From positions 1-64,000 of the forward strand of contig JAHLKT010000005.1 in NCBI GenBank assembly GCA_020444545.1: a stretch of 64,000 bases of DNA, written 5' to 3'. Shown here piece by piece: positions 7,387 through 33,298 of the stretch. The stretch's first letter is position 1; each line of letters begins with the position of its first letter. The notes under the pieces were generated by a model. It saw nothing but the letters and a program-made list of their open reading frames with translations. It was not told where the DNA came from and did no database searches. This DNA is from Desulfarculaceae bacterium. Lineage in GTDB: Bacteria; Desulfobacterota; Desulfarculia; Desulfarculales; Desulfarculaceae. A program made the translations under genes and the position numbers.

Positions 7387-8117
7387 TGCCCGTGGAGCTG
7401 GCCCTGGCCCTGATTTTTTTGGTCAGCGGCTTCACCATGAGCTTCGCGGGCTTCGGCTTCGCCCTGGTCTCGGTGCCGCTTTTGGCCCTGTTGTTGCCGG
7501 TCAAGGAGGCGGTGGCCCTGCAATTCCCCTATTGCCTGGCCCTGTTCCTCTATCAGGCCTGGCACTACCGGGCCCATCTGGACTGGAAGCTGATGAAGCC
7601 CCTGGTGCTGGGCACCGTCCTGGGCCTGGCCATCGGCGCCTTCATGCTCTACCACCTGCCCGAGGTGACCCTGAAACGGGCCCTGGCCGTGTTCATCGCG
7701 GCGGTGGTTGCCTTAAACCTGATCCCCGCCGGACAGAGCTTCATGTCCCGCCATGCCCAGAGCCCCTGGTGGGGCCGCTTCTGCGGCTTCATCACCGGGA
7801 GCTTCTTCGGGGCCTACACCATCGGCGGGCCGCCCGCCGCCCTGTACATCACCTCGGTGACCGGCGACCCGCTCAAGGCCAAGAGCTTCCTGGCCTCCTT
7901 CTTCAGCGTGCAGTTCATCCTCATCGCCTTTTTCTACGCCTACGCGGGGATGTTTTCCTGGCAGGGGCTCAGGACCACCCTGTGGTTCACCCCGGCGGTG
8001 ATCGCGGGCTCGGCCCTGGGCTTCTGGGCTTTCGCCCATGCCAGCAACCTGCTCTACCGCCGGGTGGTGGCCATAATGCTCCTGGCCACGGCGGTGGTCC
8101 TGTGGTGGCGCGCCTAG
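7386..8117 (+). CDS. TauE/SafE family membrane transporter
   Basis: A 243-residue inner-membrane protein with about seven to eight hydrophobic segments. Typical family motifs include SFAGFGFALVSVPLLALLLP near the N-terminus and a second repeat starting GSFFGAYTIGGPP. TauE/SafE proteins export sulfite, sulfoacetate or related anions. Its start overlaps the DUF1638 stop, so it is the last gene of the importer operon and may remove an anion released when the imported compound is broken down. The substrate is not known. Confidence 0.8.
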   Translation: MPVELALALIFLVSGFTMSFAGFGFALVSVPLLALLLPVKEAVALQFPYCLALFLYQAWHYRAHLDWKLMKPLVLGTVLGLAIGAFMLYHLPEVTLKRALAVFIAAVVALNLIPAGQSFMSRHAQSPWWGRFCGFITGSFFGAYTIGGPPAALYITSVTGDPLKAKSFLASFFSVQFILIAFFYAYAGMFSWQGLRTTLWFTPAVIAGSALGFWAFAHASNLLYRRVVAIMLLATAVVLWWRA

Positions 8118-8149
8118 GCTAGCCCTCCTATTCCATGCAGGCCGGGCAT

Positions 8150-8274
8150 CCGGCTGCGCCAGCCACGGGTATCCTGCGTCGCTGGCTGCGCTCGGTCCTC
8201 GACGTAGCGCTGAAGGCTACGCCTGCGTCCCTCGCTTGCCAGGCGCCTTGCCTTCCCGCGGCTGGCTGTGCCGG
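8150..8274 (+). repeat. Intergenic hairpin element, copy A
   Basis: A 125-bp element bounded by near-perfect inverted ends of the form CCGGCnnnGCCAGCC and GGCTGGCnnnGCCGG. It aligns end to end with copies at 36432-36553 and, inverted, at 53315-53437. Shared blocks include CTCGCTTGCCAGGCGCCTTG and GCGGCTGGCTGTGCCGG. It has no open frame and can fold into one long imperfect hairpin. It lies between the converging ends of the TauE gene and the sigma-54 activator gene. Confidence 0.85.
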
Positions 8275-8393
8275 GAGCCGCGCGAGGTTGACGTGACCAC
8301 GTACGAGGCCCTTTCGAAGCGGCCCAATGGTGGGCCTCGTCGGCATGCTGCTCTGCCCAGCCTCATGGAAAAGGCGGGCTTAGAACGAATTTT

Positions 8394-11207
8394 TCAGTGA
8401 AGGGTGGGGTTGCCGTCCAGGGCCAGGCCGTACTTCTGGGCCTTGCGGATAACCGTGGAGTGGGTGACCCCCAGGAGCTTGGCCGCATCGCGGGTGTTGC
8501 TGGTGGAGGCCAGGGCCTTTTGGATCAGCTGCTTCTCCAGCTGGTCGCGGGCGTCGCGCAGCTTGACCTCGCCGGTGACCCACACCAAGGGCGCCTGGGG
8601 CTGCTCGGCGCCCGGGACCATGGAGCGGGGCAGATGCCTGGGCTCCAAGACGTCGGCGTCGGCGGTGACCACCAGGCGCTCGATGACGTTTTGCAGCTCG
8701 CGCACGTTGCCCGGCCACTCGGCGGTCTCCAGCACTTGCAACAGCTCGTGGCCCAGGGTACGGCTCACGTCGTACTTCTTGTTGTAGGCCTTCAAAAAGC
8801 GTAGAGCCAGGGGCAGGATGTCCTCGCGCCGCTCCCTGAGGGGCGGAATCTCGATGGGCACCACGTAGAGGCGGTAGAAAAGGTCCTCGCGGAACTGGCC
8901 GTCGGCCACCATCTGCTTGAGGTCGCGGTTGGTGGCGGCCAGGATGCGGATGTCCAGCTCCACCGTCTTCACGCTGCCCAGGCGGCGGCAGCGCTGCTCC
9001 TGCAAGACCTTCAACAGCTTCACTTGCAGGTTCAGGGGCAGCTCGCCCACCTCGTCCAGGAACACGGTGCCCCCGGCCGCTTCCTCGAACAGACCCGGCT
9101 TGCCGTAGCGGTCCGCTCCGGAGAAGGCGCCCTTCTCGTAGCCGAAGAGCTCGCTCTCCAGCAGATGCTCGGGAATGGCCCCGCAGTTTAGCGAGACAAA
9201 GGGGTGGCTGCGCCGCTTGCTCAGGTTGTGGATCAGCTTGGCCAAGACGTCCTTGCCCACGCCGCTCTCGCCGCTGAGCAGCACGGTGGAGTCCACCTGG
9301 GCCACGCGCACCGCCAGGTCCAAGAGGTTCTTGGTGGTCGGGCTCTCGGCCACGATGCCGAAGGCGGCCTCGGGCGAGGCGGCGGCCTTCTCATCCTCCA
9401 GGCAGACCTCGGACAGCCGCTTGATGTGCTCCTCCAGGGAGTGCAGCTCGGTCACGTCGCGCACGTTCATCACCACCCGCACCACCTGGCCGAACTTGTC
9501 CAAGACCGGGTTGCCGGTGACGAAGATCTCGTTGCCGCTGTTGAGCTTGCGCCGCATGGTGATGGAGGAGCGGTGGCTCTTCACGTGGCGGAACACCGCC
9601 TGCACCACGGCCAGGCACACATGGCGCTCCGAGTCCAGGCCGCTCACGTCGCGGCCCGTGAGCTTGGTGGGGGCCAGGCCGGTGATGCGCCCGAAGCTGG
9701 GGTTCACGGTGATCACCTGGTAGGTGTCGGTGATCAGCACGCCGTCGTGGGAGTTCTCTATTAGCGAGGAAAGCTCGTCGTTGAGCCTTTGCAGCTCCTC
9801 CACCTGCTTTTGCACCGACTCCAGCTCCGAGGCGTCCTGGAACACCGAGACCGCGCCGACCACCCGGTCGTGCTGCTTGATGGGGCTGCGGCTGACCAAG
9901 AAGTTGCGGCCGTTGTGGCTGAAGGGTTTGCCCATCTCCAGCTCGCCGGTGGCCAGCACCCGGTCGAGCTGGGTGTCGGGCACGAACTGGTTGGCCGGCT
10001 TGCCCAAGGCGTCGGCCTGGGCAAAGCCCATGAGTTTTTCGGCCTGCTGGTTGACGATGGTGAAGTGGCAGTCCTGGTCCACCGCGAAGATGCCCGAGGG
10101 CACCGACTGCAACACCGTCTCCAACTGGGCCTTGGTGTGCTTCAGGTTCTCCTCGGCCTCGCGCTTGTCGGTCACGTCCCAGAGAAGGCTCTGCACCCCC
10201 ACGATGGTCCCGTCGCCGTCGCGCACCGGGTGGTGGATCATCTCCACGTAGCGCGCCTGGTCCTGGCCGGGCCGGCTGAAGCGATGCACCGCGTCCAGGG
10301 TGTCGCCGCCCCGGATGACGCTCATCTCGTCGGCCACGTAGTCCTGGGCCAGGTCCGGGGGCAGCAGGTTGCGGGCCGGCTTGCTTTGGCAATCGTCCAG
10401 CTCAATACCCATCTCGGCCAACAGCGCCTTGTTGGCAAAGGTCAGCTTGCCTTCGAGGTCGGTGCGGAACAGGCCCTGAGGCATGGTGTCCACCAGGGAC
10501 TGGTAGCGCTGCTCGCTGTCGCGTAGGGCCTTTTCCGTGCCCATCTGCTTTTTCAGGGTGGCCCGGTAGGTTACGAACAGGAAGTAGAGGAACAGTGGCA
10601 TGAGGAGGCCGCAGATGGCCAGAAATCCGACGAGCAGGGGGCGGAAGCCGTCCTCGATCTCGGCGTAGAGGGCCGAGCGGGAGCGGTGCACCCCCAGCAT
10701 CCACTTCTTCTGGGGGATGGCGTAGAAGGCGGCGATCTGGTCCTGTCCCGCGCTGGAGATGTACTCGCCCGCGTAGTTGGTCTGGGCGGTCACCAGATCG
10801 CAGAGGTTCTTGTGGTTCTTCTGGGCTCCGCCCAGGATGGGGTTGTCGCCGGCATAGGCCCCCACGCTCTCCGGGGAGGCGGTGTGCAATAGCAGGTTGC
10901 CTTTGGCGTCCACCACACAGATGTACTCGTCGGCGGGCCTGTGCCCGGCGGACTCCCAATACTTCTCCAAGGACTTGAGATAGGCGGGGCCGGCGGGCGA
11001 GGCGTTCATGTCCGCCGCCCTGACGATCATCTCGGCCTTGTTGAGGTAGAAGTTCTGATAGCCCCTTTCCATCATGGAAAAGGAATAGCGGTAGCTGACA
11101 TAGCCGATGAGCAGGGTGGCCGCGATGAGGGCCGCGTAAAGCAGGAAGGTGGCCCGGGCCATGGGCCGGGTGCGGGCCTTGAGCTCTGGGTTGCGGTTTC
11201 CTAGCAT
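8394..11207 (-). CDS. Membrane-anchored Cache-PAS sigma-54 transcriptional activator
   Basis: A 937-residue regulator. Order: membrane helix (about 18-40), a periplasmic Cache-like sensor (about 41-190), a second helix (about 195-215), three PAS domains (about 230-600), a sigma-54 AAA+ domain (about 610-855) with Walker A GESGVGKD, the sigma-54 contact loop GAFSGA (the Ser form of GAFTGA) and FLDEVGELP, then a C-terminal Fis/TyrR-type helix-turn-helix ending SNTRDAAKLLGVTHSTVIRK. There is no receiver or kinase domain, so the sensed ligand must act directly through the membrane. It converges on the importer operon, and both sigma-54-type promoters in the window lie in the spacer at 1127-1690, so that locus is the likely target. 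The effector is unknown; the imported solute is the obvious candidate. Confidence 0.85.
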   Translation of the reverse strand: MLGNRNPELKARTRPMARATFLLYAALIAATLLIGYVSYRYSFSMMERGYQNFYLNKAEMIVRAADMNASPAGPAYLKSLEKYWESAGHRPADEYICVVDAKGNLLLHTASPESVGAYAGDNPILGGAQKNHKNLCDLVTAQTNYAGEYISSAGQDQIAAFYAIPQKKWMLGVHRSRSALYAEIEDGFRPLLVGFLAICGLLMPLFLYFLFVTYRATLKKQMGTEKALRDSEQRYQSLVDTMPQGLFRTDLEGKLTFANKALLAEMGIELDDCQSKPARNLLPPDLAQDYVADEMSVIRGGDTLDAVHRFSRPGQDQARYVEMIHHPVRDGDGTIVGVQSLLWDVTDKREAEENLKHTKAQLETVLQSVPSGIFAVDQDCHFTIVNQQAEKLMGFAQADALGKPANQFVPDTQLDRVLATGELEMGKPFSHNGRNFLVSRSPIKQHDRVVGAVSVFQDASELESVQKQVEELQRLNDELSSLIENSHDGVLITDTYQVITVNPSFGRITGLAPTKLTGRDVSGLDSERHVCLAVVQAVFRHVKSHRSSITMRRKLNSGNEIFVTGNPVLDKFGQVVRVVMNVRDVTELHSLEEHIKRLSEVCLEDEKAAASPEAAFGIVAESPTTKNLLDLAVRVAQVDSTVLLSGESGVGKDVLAKLIHNLSKRRSHPFVSLNCGAIPEHLLESELFGYEKGAFSGADRYGKPGLFEEAAGGTVFLDEVGELPLNLQVKLLKVLQEQRCRRLGSVKTVELDIRILAATNRDLKQMVADGQFREDLFYRLYVVPIEIPPLRERREDILPLALRFLKAYNKKYDVSRTLGHELLQVLETAEWPGNVRELQNVIERLVVTADADVLEPRHLPRSMVPGAEQPQAPLVWVTGEVKLRDARDQLEKQLIQKALASTSNTRDAAKLLGVTHSTVIRKAQKYGLALDGNPTLH

Positions 11208-25448: not shown

Positions 25449-28400
25449 ATGGCAGCAGCCAAGCAAGTCACCGGCGCGGTGATGGTCGTGGGTGGCGGCA
25501 TCGCGGGAATGCAAGCCGCCCTAGACCTGGCCAATTCCGGCTACTACGTCTATTTGGTAGAAAAGAGCCCGGCCATTGGTGGGGTCATGTCCCAGTTGGA
25601 CAAGACCTTCCCCACCAATGACTGTGCAATGTGAATTATCTCCCCTAAACTGGTCGAGGTCGGCCGGCACATCAACATAGAGCTCCTGACCAACTCCGAG
25701 GTTCAGGAAATCGAAGGGGACGAGGGCAACTTCACGGTTAAGGTTGCCATGCATCCCCGCTTCATCGACATGGACAAGTGCATCGCCTGCGGCGCGTGCT
25801 ACGACAAATGCCCCAAGCGCATCCCCAACGAGTACAACGAGGGGTTGGACAAGCGCAAGGCGGCCTATGTGCGTTACGCCCAGGCGGTTCCGCTGAAATA
25901 CTCCATCGACAAAGACAACTGCATCTACTTCCAGAAGGGCAAGTGTAAGGCTTGCCAGAAGTTCTGCCCCACCGGGGCGGTGGACTTCGAGATGCAGGAG
26001 GATAACCGGGAGCTGAAGGTCGGTTCGGTGATCATCAGCGCCGGGTTCCGTCCCTTTGATCCCAGCCCCTATGCGCAGTACTCCTACGCCAACTTCCCCA
26101 ACGTGGTGACGGCGCTGGAGTTCGAGCGCATCCTGGCCGCCAGCGGCCCCTGGATGGGCCACCTGGTGCGGCCCTCCGACGAGGCCGAGCCCAAGAAGAT
26201 CGCCTGGATCCAGTGCGTTGGCTCCCGCGACATCAACGCCTGCGACCATCCCTACTGCTCGGCGGTGTGCTGCATGTACGCCATCAAGGAGGCGGTGATC
26301 GCCAAGGAGCACTCCAAGACGGACTTGGACGCGGCCATCTTCTATATGGACATGCGCACCTTCGGCAAGGACTTCGAGCGCTACTACGACAACGCCAAGG
26401 AAGATGGGGTGCGCTTCATCCGCAGCCGCATCCACTCCATCAGCCAGCTCGATAACAAGTCCTTGCAGATCGAATACGCCACCGAGGACGGCCAGGCTCT
26501 GCTGGAAGAGTTCGACATGGTGGTATTGAGCCAGGGCTTGGAGGTCTCGCCCGAGACCGCGGCCATGTGCCGCCAGCTGGGCATCGAGCTCAACAGCACC
26601 AGCTTCATCGACGTGGATTCCTTCGCGCCGGTGTCCACCAGCCGTCCGGGGGTCTATGTCTGCGGCGCCTTGGCCGGGCCCAAGGACATCCCGCTCAGCG
26701 TGATGGAGGCCTCGGCGGCGGCTTGCGCCGCGGCGGGCAACCTCTCCAGCGCCCGGGGCAGCATGACCAAGGAACAGGTCATCCCCGAGCAGCAGCAGGT
26801 GGCCGGCGACCAGCCCAAGGTGGGCGTGTTCGTCTGCTCCTGCGGCATCAACATCGCGGGCGTGGTGGACGTGGCCGGGGTGGTGGAATACGCCAAGACC
26901 CTGCCCTACGTCACCTACGTGGAGAACAACCTGTTCTCCTGCTCGCAGGACACCCAAGACAAGATCGCGGCCACGGTCAAGGAACAGGGCCTCAACCGCG
27001 TGGTGGTGGCCGCCTGCACCCCGCGCACCCACGAGCCCCTGTTCCAGGAGACCCTGGTGGCGGCCGGCCTGAACAAGTACCTGTTCGAGATGGCCAACAT
27101 CCGCAACCAGGACTCCTGGGTGCATTCGGACCAGCCCGAGATGGCCACCGAGAAGGCCAAGGACCTGGTCCGCATGGCCGTGGCCAAGGCCGCGCTGCTC
27201 AGCCCCTTGCAGGAGGTGCAGCTGGAGGTCGACCCGGGCGCCATGGTCATCGGCGGCGGCCTGGCCGGCATGAACGCGGCCCTGGAGCTGGCCAAGCAGG
27301 GCTACTCCTGCCACCTGGTGGAGCGCGACAACGCCCTGGGCGGCAACGCCCGCTCCTTGCGCGCCACGGCCAAGGGCGAGGACGTGGCTTCCTACCTGGC
27401 CGAGCTGACCGAAAAGGTGGAGAACGAGCCTCTGATCACCACCCACCTGGGCTCGGTGATCAAGGACGTGGACGGCTTCGTGGGCAACTTCAAAACCACC
27501 CTGGCCGGCGACTCCGGCGAGGAGGTGGTGGAGCACGGGGTGGCCATCATCGCCACCGGCGCGGCCGAGTACAAGCCCAACGAATACGCCTACGGCAGCC
27601 ATCCCAAGGTGATGACCCACCTGGAGATGGACGACGGGCTCGTCTCCGGAGAGTTGGACCCCAAGAAGGTCAACTCCCTGGTGCTGATCCAGTGCGTGGG
27701 CTCCCGCGAGCCCGAGCGCCCCTACTGCTCCAAGGTCTGCTGCACCCACTCGGTGGAGACGGCGCTGCACTTCAAGGAGGAGAACCCCGAGTGCCAGGTG
27801 GTGATCCTCTACCGCGACATCCGCACCTTCGGCGAGCGCGAGCTCTTGTACAAGGAGGCCCGCTCCAAGGGCGTCTTGTTCGTGCGCTACGACGTGGACC
27901 AGAAGCCCGTGGTGGAAGCCGACGGCGACGGCCTCAAGGTGGCGGTGCGCGACCACGTGCTGGGCCGCGAGCTCCTCATCGAGGCCGACCTGGTGGGGCT
28001 GGCCACGGCCATCACCAGCCACAAGGCCACGGACCTGGCCCAGATGTTCAAGGTGTCCATGGACGCCGACGGCTGGTTCCTGGAGGCCCACCAGAAGCTC
28101 CGCCCGGTGGACTTCGCCACCGACGGCGTGTTCATGGCCGGCCTGTGCCATTATCCCAAGCCCATCGAAGAGGCGGTGGCCCAGGCCCAGGCTTCGGTGG
28201 CCCGCGCGGTGACGGTGCTCTCCAGCAAGGAGATGATGCTGCCGGGCACCGTGGCCGTCATCGAGCAGAACAAGTGCGTGGGCTGCGGGGTGTGCTGGAC
28301 GGTGTGCCCCTACCAGGCCATCAGCCAGGACGAGAACGGCCTGGCCGTGGTCAACGAGGCCCTGTGCAAGGGCTGCGGCACCTGCGTTGCTTCCTGCCGC

Positions 28401-28466
28401 TCGGGCGCACCCAACCTGCGCGGCTTCACCAACCAGGGCGTCATGGCCCAGATCATGGCTCTGTAG
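25449..28466 (+). CDS. hdrA: Selenocysteine-containing HdrA, double-flavin form
   Basis: A 1005-residue flavoprotein read through an in-frame TGA at codon 62 (25632-25634). The context [14 protein letters not shown] matches NDCxMCxxxPK of HdrA, so Sec replaces a cluster-binding Cys; a SECIS-like hairpin follows. The protein is a tandem. The first half has the FAD motif [17 protein letters not shown] and two ferredoxin clusters ([12 protein letters not shown] near 114; CKACQKFCP). After [15 protein letters not shown] (about 459) there is a second FAD motif [16 protein letters not shown] (about 598) lacking the Sec/Cys motif. C-terminal ferredoxin clusters ([23 protein letters not shown]) end the chain. 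HdrA is the bifurcating subunit that splits electron pairs from NADH or hydrogen between ferredoxin and a disulfide-type acceptor. The ATG follows AGAGGAA. First gene of the operon. Confidence 0.92.
25650..25667 (+). other. SECIS-like hairpin of hdrA
   Basis: CTGGTCG pairs with CGGCCGG (7 bp, two G-U) around an AGGT loop. The loop begins 23 bases after the UGA, within the range used by bacterial SelB, and carries the GU expected in the apical loop. Confidence 0.7.
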
Positions 28467-28487: not shown

Positions 28488-28928
28488 ATGAGCGATAATT
28501 CCCAGTTCCAACCACGCATCGCGGCGTTCCTGTGCAACTGGTGCTCCTACGGCGCGGCCGACCTCGCCGGGGTGAGCCGGTTGCAGTACCCGCCCAATAT
28601 TCACGTGATACGCATCCCCTGCACCGGCCGCATGAGCCCCAAGTTCATCTTGCAGGCCTTCCGCCAGGGAGTCGACGGAGTGTGGGTCAGCGGCTGACAC
28701 CCGGGCGATTGCCACTATATTGCTGGCAACCTCTTCGCCCGGCGGCGGTTCGCCGTCCTCAAGAATCTCCTGGAGTACGTTGGCATTGAACCCGGTCGGC
28801 TGCATTTCAGCTGGATCTCATCCGCCGAGGCCACCAAGTTCCAAGACACGGTGATCGAGGTGACCGAGTCGGTCAAGGCTCTGGGCCCGGCCAAGCACAT
28901 GATCAAAGACGTCCGGAAGGTGGCCTGA
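28488..28928 (+). CDS. flxD: Selenocysteine-containing MvhD/FlxD-like electron-transfer subunit
   Basis: A 146-residue 2Fe-2S protein read through TGA at codon 70 (28695-28697). The peptide VWVSG-U-HPGDCHY corresponds to the GCHPGDCHY motif of MvhD, so Sec replaces a cluster ligand; the methanogen homologue VhuD is likewise a selenoprotein. The N-terminus [20 protein letters not shown] and [13 protein letters not shown] are typical. The subunit passes electrons from the NADH- or hydrogen-oxidising module to HdrA. Stopping at 75 residues, as the DNA would without Sec, would remove half the domain. Its stop overlaps the next start (TGATG). Confidence 0.92.
28709..28729 (+). other. SECIS-like hairpin of the MvhD/FlxD gene
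   Basis: TTGCCA pairs perfectly with TGGCAA around a nine-base loop that begins 18 bases after the UGA. An outer GGCGA/TCGCC helix with a bulge can extend it (28704-28739). The loop lacks an obvious GGU, so this is the weakest of the three. Confidence 0.5.
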
Positions 28929-29890
28929 TGGAAGCGGTGGCTGAAAAAATCAGGGAAGCCGCGGCCAAGCTACTCAGCGAAGGCAAGGTGGATTGCGTGA
29001 TCGGCTATGCCCAGGGCACGGTGCCCATGCGCGACTACCCCTACTTCGCCTACACCCCGGAAGAAGCCCAAAACCTGACTTGGTCGCCCTTTTGCTGTAA
29101 CAACCTGGCCAACTTTTTGATCCGCCGCCCCAAGGGCGAGATCGGCAAGGTGGCCATCGTGGCCCAGGGCTGCGTGAGCCGCAGCATCGTGGGGCTGATT
29201 AAGGAAAACCAGATCGCCCGCGAGGATGTCTACATCCTGGGCGTGCCCAGCCCGGGCATGGTGGACCGCCGCAAGGTGGCCGAGCGCTTCCCGCTGAAAA
29301 CCATCACCGAGGTGACGGTGGACGGCGAGGATCTCATCGTCAAGGGCAACGGTTTCGAGGAGCGCATCTCCCAGAAGGAAGTGCGCCGCGACAACTGCTA
29401 CACCTGCGTGCAGCGCAACCCGGTGATCGTCGACGAGATGATGGCCGAGGAGGGCCCCTCCGACTGGGGCGGCAACATCGACGCGGTGGCCGCGCCCTGG
29501 GAGAAGCTCGAGCCGGCCCAGCGCTGGGAAGCCTTCATCGACGAGGTCGACTCCTGCATCCGCTGCTACGCCTGCCGGGACGCCTGCCCCCTGTGCTACT
29601 GCCACGTGTGCTTCGTGGACGAGTCCATGCCCCAGTGGTGCGGCAAAACCCAAGACGAGGCCGACGTGGCCACCTTCCATATCCTGAGGGCCTTCCACTG
29701 CGCCGGCCGCTGCACCGACTGCGGGGCCTGCGAGAGCGCCTGCCCCCAGGGCATCAAGGTGCGCCGCTTCACCAGCAAGATCGAGAAGGACGTCCGCGAG
29801 CTCTACGGATACTCGCCGGGCATGGACCTGGAAGAGACGCCGCCCCTGAGCGTCTATCGGCCCAACGATCCCCAGGAATTCATCAAGTAG
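28928..29890 (+). CDS. FlxC/FrhB-like iron-sulfur subunit of the Flx/Hdr complex
   Basis: A 320-residue protein. The N-terminal two thirds resemble FrhB-type subunits (GYAQGTVPMRDYPYFAYTPE, then FCCNNLANFLIR). The C-terminal third has two cysteine-rich ferredoxin motifs, CIRCYACRDACPLCYCHVCF and CTDCGACESACPQGI, enough for two 4Fe-4S clusters. It lies between the MvhD-like and HydB-like genes and overlaps the former by one base. By position it would be FlxC of the FlxABCD-HdrABC complex, wiring electrons between flavin and Hdr modules. The exact subunit name is uncertain. Confidence 0.75.
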   Translation: MEAVAEKIREAAAKLLSEGKVDCVIGYAQGTVPMRDYPYFAYTPEEAQNLTWSPFCCNNLANFLIRRPKGEIGKVAIVAQGCVSRSIVGLIKENQIAREDVYILGVPSPGMVDRRKVAERFPLKTITEVTVDGEDLIVKGNGFEERISQKEVRRDNCYTCVQRNPVIVDEMMAEEGPSDWGGNIDAVAAPWEKLEPAQRWEAFIDEVDSCIRCYACRDACPLCYCHVCFVDESMPQWCGKTQDEADVATFHILRAFHCAGRCTDCGACESACPQGIKVRRFTSKIEKDVRELYGYSPGMDLEETPPLSVYRPNDPQEFIK

Positions 29891-29902: not shown

Positions 29903-30931
29903 ATGGCTGACAAGATACTGGCCAAAGACAAGCTGGCCGACTTCCTGGGCAAACTGCAGGCCGATTACGAGGTCTACGCGCCCCAGGAGGTGGAAGGCAA
30001 GGCCCAATGGGCCCCCTTGGAGGACGCCGGCAAGGCCCTCTGGGAGTTTTCCAACACCAGCATGAGCCCCAAGGACTTCTTCTTCCCCCAGACCGAAGTC
30101 CTGATGCGCTTCAAGAACGTCCAGGACCACGAGAGCGGGATGGTCATGGAGGCCGAGCCGCCCCTGGACAAAAAACGCCTGCTTCTTAACATCCGTCCCT
30201 GCGACGCCAAGGCCTTCCAGGTCCTGGACCTGATCTTCGTGCAGGACGAGATGACCAACGACCTGTACTGGAAGGACAAGCGGGACATGACCACCCTGGT
30301 GGGCCTGGCCTGCTCCGATCCTTGCCCCAGCTGCTTCTGCACCTCCATGAACTGCGGCCCCGCCTCCACCACCGGCCTGGACGCCCTGCTGTTCGACCTG
30401 GGCGACAAGCTCCTGGTGCGCTCCCTGACCGAAAAGGGCGAGGCCGTGGCCGAGGGCCTGGACGACGCCGCCGAGGGCGACACCGCCGCGGCCGCCGAGC
30501 AGGCAACCACCGCCGAGGGCAAGATCAGCTCTTCGGTGGGCATGGACAACGTGAACTCGCGCTCGGTGATGGAGCTCTACGAGGCGGGCATGTGGGACCG
30601 GGTGTTCGAGAACTGCCTCAACTGCGGCACCTGCACCTACGTCTGCCCCACCTGCCACTGCTTCGACATTCAGGACGAGACCCAGGGCACCGAGGGCCGC
30701 CGGGTGCGCAACTGGGACAATTGCATGAGCTGGCTGTTCACCATGCACGGCACCGGCCACAACCCCCGGGGCACCAAGAAAGACCGGGTGCGCCAGCGGT
30801 TCATGCACAAGTTCAAGTACATTCCGGTCAAGCGCGGCGGCGAGATCGGCTGCGTCGGTTGCGGGCGGTGTGTGGTGCTCTGCCCGGTGAACATCGACGT
30901 GCGCCGCGTCGTCAACGACATGAACGCTTAG
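29903..30931 (+). CDS. flxB: FlxB / HydB-AsrA-like iron-sulfur subunit
   Basis: A 342-residue protein of the family of sulfhydrogenase beta subunit and anaerobic sulfite reductase subunit A. It shows NIRPCDAKAFQVLD, CSDPCPSCFCTSMNCGP, and two ferredoxin motifs CLNCGTCTYVCPTCHCFDI and CVGCGRCVVLCP near the C-terminus. A low-complexity Ala/Glu/Thr stretch (about residues 185-205) is inserted before the first ferredoxin motif. It would carry electrons from the FAD subunit encoded next. Start has a nearby AGGAAGG. Confidence 0.85.
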   Translation: MADKILAKDKLADFLGKLQADYEVYAPQEVEGKAQWAPLEDAGKALWEFSNTSMSPKDFFFPQTEVLMRFKNVQDHESGMVMEAEPPLDKKRLLLNIRPCDAKAFQVLDLIFVQDEMTNDLYWKDKRDMTTLVGLACSDPCPSCFCTSMNCGPASTTGLDALLFDLGDKLLVRSLTEKGEAVAEGLDDAAEGDTAAAAEQATTAEGKISSSVGMDNVNSRSVMELYEAGMWDRVFENCLNCGTCTYVCPTCHCFDIQDETQGTEGRRVRNWDNCMSWLFTMHGTGHNPRGTKKDRVRQRFMHKFKYIPVKRGGEIGCVGCGRCVVLCPVNIDVRRVVNDMNA

Positions 30932-30949: not shown

Positions 30950-31789
30950 ATGCGTAACACATACGTTCCCTATCCGGTCCGCATAAAGAAGGCCGAGGTG
31001 GCCACCGAGGACAAGCAGCTGAAGACCTTTCTCCTGGAGTTCATCAACGAGCAGGAGGGCGAGGACTTCAACTACATCCCCGGTCAGTTCGCCGAGCTGA
31101 GCGTTTCGGGCTACGGCGAGATCCCCATCGGCATAGCCAGTAGCCCCACCGAGGGCAACGACCTCTTGTTCACGGTGAACAAGGTGGGCAGCGTGTCCAC
31201 CCAACTGCACAACATGAACGAGGGCGACATCATGGGCGTGCGGGGTCCGCTGGGCAACAGCTACCCCCTCAAGGAGATGGAGGGCAAGAACATCGTCATC
31301 GTGGCCGGCGGCTTCGCGGTGACCACCCTGCGCTCCACCATGATCTGGCTGCTGGACCCGGCCAACCGCTCCAAATACGGCGACATCACCTTTATCTACG
31401 GCGCGCGCACCCCGGGCCTGCTGCTCTATGAAGACGAGTGGCGTTCCTGGCGGGAAAGCGGCCAGGCCAACGTGAACATCACCATCGACCGCGAGGCCGA
31501 GGGGTGGGACGGCCTGGTGGGCTTCGTGCCCACGGTTTGCGAAGAGGTGGCCCCCAAGCCCGACGACGCGGTGGCCCTTATCTGCGGCCCGCCGGTGATG
31601 ATCCGCTTTACCCAGCCGGTGTTCGACAAGCTGGGCTGGCAGCCCGAGCAGATCGTGATGAGCCTGGAGAACCGCATGAAGTGCGGTATCGGCATTTGCG
31701 GCCGCTGCAACGTGGGGCCGGAGTATGTCTGCAAGGACGGCCCGGTCTTCACCAAAGCCCATCTGGACCAGCTTCCCAAGGAATACTAG
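30950..31789 (+). CDS. flxA: FlxA / HydG-AsrB-like FAD-NAD(P)H oxidoreductase subunit
   Basis: A 279-residue ferredoxin-NADP reductase-like protein. The FAD-binding strand is YIPGQFAELSVSGYGEIPIG followed by IASSP; NAD(P) binding is suggested by VAGGFAVTTLRSTMIWLL and FIYGARTPG. A C-terminal 2Fe-2S motif CGIGICGRCNVGPEYVCKDG closes the chain, as in sulfhydrogenase gamma subunits. It is the site of pyridine nucleotide oxidation or reduction in the Flx module. Its stop is followed by a strong hairpin. Confidence 0.88.
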   Translation: MRNTYVPYPVRIKKAEVATEDKQLKTFLLEFINEQEGEDFNYIPGQFAELSVSGYGEIPIGIASSPTEGNDLLFTVNKVGSVSTQLHNMNEGDIMGVRGPLGNSYPLKEMEGKNIVIVAGGFAVTTLRSTMIWLLDPANRSKYGDITFIYGARTPGLLLYEDEWRSWRESGQANVNITIDREAEGWDGLVGFVPTVCEEVAPKPDDAVALICGPPVMIRFTQPVFDKLGWQPEQIVMSLENRMKCGIGICGRCNVGPEYVCKDGPVFTKAHLDQLPKEY

Positions 31790-31981: not shown

Positions 31982-33298
31982 ATGAGCCAAGAGCCGATCA
32001 AACTGGGCAAACGCGAGTCCAAACTGCGCGTGGACCCCAAATGGGCCGATGTGTGCCTCACCTGCGGCACCTGCGCCGGCGGCTGTCCCGTCACCGGCGT
32101 CGACGGCATGGACCCCCGCAAGGCGGTGCGCATGGCCGCCCTGGGGCTTGACGACGAACTGATCAACTCCCGCTTCCCCTGGGTCTGCACCCTGTGCGGG
32201 CGCTGCGAGCGCGCCTGCCCCATGGGCGTGGAGATCCTGGCCATGATGCGCACCGCGCGCGGCCTGCGTGAGCGGGACAAGGTGCCCGGACCGATCCACA
32301 AGGGCACCATGATGTCCATGGAGCGGGGCAACAACCTGGGTATCCCCTACGACGACTGGCTGTTCCTGCTGGCCGACATGTCCAAGGAGATGGAAGACGA
32401 GGGCTTCCCCGGCTTCTACGTTCCGGTGGACAAGGTGGGCGCCCGGGTCATCTCCACGGTGAACTCCAAGGAGCCCTTCGGCGAGCCGGACGACATGAAG
32501 TTCTGGTGGAAGATCTACTACGCCGCCCATGAGAGCTGGACCGTTTCCAGCGAGAACTGGGAGGGCGTTACCTGGGGCCTGTTCGGCGGGGACGACGAGT
32601 CCATGAAGGAGCAGGCGCGGCGGGTCTTGGAGAACGCCCGCAAGGTGAAAGCCGAGGTGCTTCTCCTACCCGAGTGAGGCCACGCGTACTTTGGAACTAG
32701 GCTTAGTTTCAAAAAGTGGTTCCCCGAGGTCTTCGAAGAGTTCAAGGTTATGAACATCTTCGAGCTGATGATGGAATACATTAAGGAAGGCCGGGTCAAG
32801 ATCGACCGCGAGAAGTTCGCGGGCAAGCTTGCCACCGTGCACGACCCCTGCAACTACGGCCGCAAGAGCGAGAAGGCCTTTGGCAAGGCCTACTACGACG
32901 AGATCCGCTGGATCACCGACCAGATTTGCGACACCTGGGTGGACACCTATCCCACCAGGGAAAACAACTTCTGCTGCGGCGCGGGCGGCGGCGCCTGGGC
33001 CATGCCCTACACCAACGAGCGCCTCTACTACGGCCGCAAGAAGGCCGAGCAGATCGAGCAGACCGGGGCCGAGATCGTGGTGGCCCCCTGCCACAACTGC
33101 CGCGACCAGATCATGAAGGCCTTGACCAAGGAGTATGATCTGGAGATCGAAACCTTCTACCTCTGGGAACTGCTGGCCGAAGCCATTATAGTAGAGCCCT
33201 GGAGCGAGGAAGAGGTCGAGAAGGCCCACGCCGAGGCCGAGGCCCAGTGGGAGCACTTCGGGGTCGAGCTGGACGACGACTGGGAGCCCCCCGAATAG
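31982..33298 (+). CDS. Selenocysteine-containing HdrC-HdrB fusion (HdrD-like) subunit
   Basis: A 438-residue protein read through TGA at codon 232 (32675-32677). The N-terminal HdrC-like half has two 4Fe-4S motifs, CLTCGTCAGGCPVTG and CTLCGRCERACPMG. The C-terminal half is one CCG domain: LPE-U-GHAYFG, HDPCNYGR, NNFCCGAGGG and APCHNC. In the family the first position is Cys (PECGHA), so Sec replaces a ligand of the noncubane-type cluster. The frame continues with perfect domain structure past the UGA to 33298. HdrB/HdrD-type subunits reduce a disulfide; in sulfate reducers the partner may be a DsrC-like protein. It ends at a strong terminator. Confidence 0.9.
32690..32713 (+). other. SECIS-like hairpin of the HdrC-HdrB fusion gene
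   Basis: TTTGGAACTA pairs with TAGTTTCAAA (10 bp, one G-U) around a GGCT loop that begins 23 bases after the UGA. The length, distance and G-rich small loop fit a bacterial SECIS element well. Confidence 0.75.

Follow-up and report, generated by a model that had tools for sequence, protein, structure and literature searches.

The operon and its HdrC-HdrB fusion gene

The window analysed here, a stretch of 64,000 nucleotides from a Desulfarculaceae bacterium, carries on its forward strand an operon in the order HdrA-MvhD-X-HydB-HydG-CCG. The last gene (31982..33298, 68 related loci) encodes a fusion of HdrC and HdrB domains (HdrD type), an identity proposed in the initial annotation and borne out by Pfam matches to Fer4_8 and CCG. 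Its frame opens with ATG at 31982, closes with TAG at 33296-33298 and is continuous over 438 amino acids when one internal TGA is read through as selenocysteine (Sec, U). The first gene (25449..28466) encodes an HdrA of the HdrA2 type (NCBIfam HdrA2, 967 bits, below the cut-off of 1100), with a UGA at codon 62 (25632-25634) in the motif TNDCAMU. It is followed by an MvhD/FrhD-type subunit (28488..28898, Pfam FlpD 1.5e-53) with a UGA at codon 70 (28695-28697) in the motif SGUHPGDC. Sec-containing HdrA and MvhD/FrhD are described selenoprotein families (PMC13188914, PMC1794560). With the UGA of the fusion gene, three predicted selenoprotein genes thus lie in one operon.

The three genes between mvhD and the fusion, also on the forward strand, encode an iron-sulfur protein with weak FrhB/FdhB-N similarity (28901..29890, start approximate), found at the same place in Desulfarculaceae relatives, a sulfhydrogenase beta or AsrA-like Fe-S subunit (29903..30931, NCBIfam HydB 165.7 bits, below the cut-off of 750) and a sulfhydrogenase gamma or AsrB-like FAD/NAD(P)-binding subunit (30950..31789, PRK08345 223.8 bits, below the cut-off of 395, with Pfam NAD_binding_1). 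The gene order of the window is kept in Desulfarculaceae relatives with enough flanking sequence (for example loci L020, L021, L027, L069, and L084). Another group has the order glpC-hdrA-mvhD (for example L045, L047 from Desulfogranum marinum, and L063 from Desulfoprunum benzoelyticum DSM 28570). In L063, genes for an Oxidored_q6 protein and a NiFe hydrogenase come next, which makes up the published five-gene operon. Some copies have no hdrA in the flanking stretch examined (for example L028 and L035). The L035 copy (7998-9299), which has the UGH motif, stands beside CheA-, CheB-, and CheR-like genes and response-regulator genes. Given that several copies lie apart from hdrA, the partner of the protein appears to be variable.

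Predicted readthrough of the UGA codon

The UGA (32675..32677, forward strand) is codon 232 of the fusion and lies in the context LLLPEUGHAYF, with the motif PE-U-GHA. Among 67 related loci with a readable codon at this place, whose identity to the window protein goes down to 52%, 65 have TGA and two have TGC, which together with the open frame confirms the in-frame UGA reported in the initial annotation. In an alignment of 41 sequences, with U entered as C, no row has anything but Sec or Cys at residue 232, and the surrounding E231, G233, and H234 are invariant. DsrK-type relatives keep ECGH there, in agreement with the earlier view that the residue stands in for a cysteine. The family is widespread, with a strong match in 89 of the 297 genomes sampled from the phylum; the codon is TGA in all 30 of the best survey loci, a biased sample.

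Just 3' of the UGA is a hairpin with G in its apical loop, as is characteristic of a bacterial SECIS element (32690..32713, forward strand, TTTGGAACTA-GGCT-TAGTTTCAAA). Its arms (32690-32699 and 32704-32713) form 10 base pairs, including one G-U, around the loop GGCU (32700-32703). The stem length, the loop, and the coordinates were correctly given in the initial annotation; the spacing from UGA to loop is 22 nt, one less than the 23 bases stated there. The loop GG is present in 60 of 61 aligned Sec loci. In the 37 loci with AGG-type hairpins, stem pair 24/31 is C-G in 22 and U-A in 15, and at stem pair 21/34 there are 31 loci with G-C and six with A-U. In CGG-type hairpins the pairing is shifted one base on, and for each of five pairs at least 23 of the 24 loci have a standard pair. 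The hairpin is written in codons that are rare in the neighbouring genes (GGA 4%, ACT 2%, AGG 2%, CTT 4%, and AGT 2%). In 5000 synonymous recodings the longest stem had 7 bp, and one of 10 bp or more never arose. The free energy of the 61-nt segment is unremarkable when set against dinucleotide shuffles (z -0.68), so the case for a SECIS element is built on conservation, covariation, and codon choice, and not on stability.

The genome carries selA, selB, tRNA-Sec, and selD, and its selD itself contains a TGA. The conservation of the TGA, the hairpin evidence, and the Sec machinery make it nearly certain, as far as sequence can tell, that UGA 232 is decoded as selenocysteine by means of the downstream hairpin, as the initial annotation had proposed. 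The alternative, that the UGA is a genuine stop or arose by sequencing error and the gene is split or broken, has nothing in its favour but the stop codon itself and is ruled out by the 65 of 67 loci with TGA, drawn from many genomes; the SECIS conserved in relatives and the complete Sec machinery speak against it as well, and we give it almost no weight.

The two loci with TGC at the codon aligned to window position 32675 (L060 and L064, Syntrophobacteraceae) also lack the loop GG of the SECIS. In the tree, both are nested within the Sec clade. Their fork with the nearest Sec row has moderate support (94/67), and the wider Sec-containing sets have good support (96/87 and 97/97). This nesting suggests a likely Sec-to-Cys reversion. 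No Sec-to-Cys event was entered for GlpC in the table published in 2006 (PMC1794560).

The genome JAGPLX, one of the two with a TGC copy, also has a Sec copy (L071). In Desulforhabdus sp. TSK (L083, 7977-8783), a glpC-like frame with PE-U-GHAYY runs into hdrA (YLVEK...); the CCG domain and the SECIS are lost and hdrA is broken further on, through either a deletion or a misassembly. The genome of the window itself encodes a paralog that is 48% identical to the fusion (L086, 1507-2841, reverse strand) and has Cys at the site (PDCGG). Just upstream of this paralog is an MvhD-like frame with Cys, and the pair may be a selenium-free counterpart.

Sec232 and the CCG domains

The fusion begins with an HdrC-like ferredoxin domain for two [4Fe-4S] clusters (32045..32230, residues 22-83, Pfam Fer4_8 5.9e-11), which matches HdrC chains such as 5odc_C. 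Pfam recognizes one CCG domain, at the C-terminal side (32834..33112, residues 285-377, CCG 1e-12). We modelled the protein with AlphaFold2 (mean pLDDT 87, pTM 0.87), with Sec modelled as Cys and without a cluster. Residues 154-405 of the model match HdrB chains (Z 17-18, rmsd 2.8-3.2), indicating that a second, N-terminal CCG-type domain exists although it is missed by Pfam. This degenerate domain spans approximately residues 154-268 (32441..32785) and is also delimited by alignment to HdrB-type proteins. The best overall fold match is EtfD of Mycobacterium smegmatis (Z 23.1 over 381 residues). Searching the PDB by sequence turned up HdrC chains, HdrB chains, and EtfD as the nearest structures, none of them a close relative. 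The model also has weak fold matches to Asp/Glu racemases (Z of about 6-7, model residues 151-423), which likewise pair two alike domains about a two-cysteine cleft; scores in this range may reflect a common arrangement only.

The noncubane clusters of HdrB-type CCG domains are bound by five cysteines in the pattern C, CC, CxxC. The C-terminal CCG domain of the fusion has all five (C290, C331, C332, C370, and C373), each invariant in the 41 aligned sequences, and we infer that it carries one noncubane [4Fe-4S] cluster. Sec232 lies outside this set. When the fusion is aligned with the HdrB-, HdrD-, and EtfD-type proteins of its own genome, the residue opposite Sec232 is the first cysteine of the CxxC motif of the N-terminal CCG domain (HdrB-type LVTP-CKCCF against LLLPEUGHAYF in the window). 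HMMER gives the same register, placing ECGHAF of a DsrK-type paralog on TCPHCF of EtfD. A235 stands in for the second cysteine of this CxxC, and none of the remaining three ligands is present. The fusion therefore does not have two complete five-cysteine motifs: nothing but position 232 is left of the first, while the second is intact. With one of five ligands, the N-terminal domain would be unable to hold a cluster of its own in the usual way, and it appears to have lost that cluster while keeping Sec232 at a former HdrB ligand position. The initial annotation had described PECGHA as an element that binds the noncubane cluster. As a former ligand position this is upheld, whereas binding of a noncubane cluster is not, since the cluster in question is the lost one.

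A proposed catalytic role for Sec232

The order of the operon suggests that the fusion is probably its disulfide-reducing subunit and would be fed by HdrA, in a complex with HdrA, MvhD, and the HydB- and HydG-like subunits that would be NAD(P)H-linked and possibly flavin-bifurcating. Both the substrate and the electron donor of this complex are read from the neighbouring genes only. Sec232 would most likely act as a redox-active selenol in a cleft facing the remaining cluster. It would bind one half of a disulfide or trisulfide substrate as a selenosulfide, leaving the other half to the cluster. A substrate of the DsrC type is plausible, as a guess. We consider this proposal as a whole, in which a selenoprotein of the UGH family places a catalytic selenol opposite its single noncubane cluster, to be moderately probable. 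A vestigial ligand site opposite one intact cluster would offer a concrete idea of why bacteria spend selenium here.

Sec232 might instead be a peripheral redox group that serves protection, complex assembly, or disulfide exchange with a partner protein and is not catalytic at the cluster. The orphan copies apart from hdrA and the natural Cys versions are consistent with such a role. However, the invariant E231, G233, and H234 and the equivalent cysteine kept in DsrK-type paralogs are what is expected of an active-site residue, and we regard a peripheral role as rather unlikely.

The initial annotation had placed selenium in the noncubane cluster itself. Sec232 would then be a direct selenolate ligand, either an extra or alternative one or one that occupies, in one redox state, an iron with a free site, permanently or in turnover. 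The location of the residue speaks for this: at the corresponding place, HdrB-type proteins have a ligand of their first cluster, the one lost here, and the CCG domains oppose each other in the HdrB fold, as judged from the fold match and general knowledge of HdrB. Nevertheless, the remaining cluster already has its full canonical set of five cysteines, which do not vary across the family, and the N-terminal domain retains too few ligands for a cluster of its own. The claim is thus unsupported, and we hold ligation to be improbable. A search of the literature available returned no relevant paper on a DsrK structure and none on Sec with a noncubane cluster. If true, Se-Fe ligation would make this a natural selenium-ligated disulfide-reducing cluster. 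Direct ligation is less likely than a catalytic selenol in the cleft.

Comparison with known systems

The fusion shares with methanogen HdrB (5ODC chain B and others) the fold of two CCG domains and an intact second CCG motif. The two differ in cluster content: HdrB holds two noncubane clusters, as Wagner et al. (2017, cited in PMC6019823) are reported to have described, whereas in the first motif of the fusion a single ligand position of five is retained. The score of the fusion against the HdrB model (TIGR03288) is 23.3 bits, with a cut-off of 345.15. DsrK, HmcF, and TmcB have the same architecture of ferredoxin and CCG domains and a conserved ECGH at the Sec site (L087 and L115 in the same genome), but Cys where the fusion has Sec. 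The matches to DsrK (NF045796, 134.8 bits against a cut-off of 400), HmcF (NF045711, 205.7 against 750), and TmcB (NF045724, 183.2 against 735) are far under their cut-offs, so the fusion is related to these families and is assigned to none of them. DsrK is the electron entry of sulfate respiration, and since it has the same site with Cys, natural Sec/Cys pairs could reveal the role of the residue there.

The initial annotation knew of no described bacterial case, a view that the literature refutes. Among the selenoprotein families that Zhang et al. (2006) listed for Deltaproteobacteria is an Fe-S oxidoreductase (GlpC), of which they counted five members; they also described the operon glpC-hdrA-frhD-frhG-frhA (PMC1794560). 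In a 2026 review, the GlpC family is given as PTHR43551 with the motif UGH, and such selenoproteins are said to be still largely uncharacterised (PMC13188914). Strittmatter et al. (2009) reported that HdrD4 of Desulfobacterium autotrophicum HRM2, which has HdrC and HdrB domains, is a selenoprotein (PMC2702500). The window protein has an in-frame UGA in the U-G-H of an Fe-S oxidoreductase and, as both the GlpC/UGH family and HdrD4 have been published, is a further member of the known UGH ('GlpC') selenoprotein family.

Compared by domain type, HdrD4 and HdrF2 of D. autotrophicum HRM2 are, like the window protein, HdrC-HdrB fusion selenoproteins of a sulfate reducer (PMC2702500); HdrF2 differs in having transmembrane and other domains. 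The likeness to the GlpC family (PMC1794560) extends to the Sec-Gly-His motif, the Fe-S oxidoreductase type, the phylum, and the vicinity of Sec-containing hdrA and frhD/mvhD, as hdrA and mvhD of the window both contain a UGA. The operon differs from the published one in that frhG and frhA are absent and NAD(P)H-type subunits replace the NiFe hydrogenase FrhG/FrhA. To these known systems our analysis adds the mapping of Sec to a vestigial ligand position, an NAD(P)H-type variant of the operon, one probable Sec-to-Cys reversion, and a survey of the phylum.
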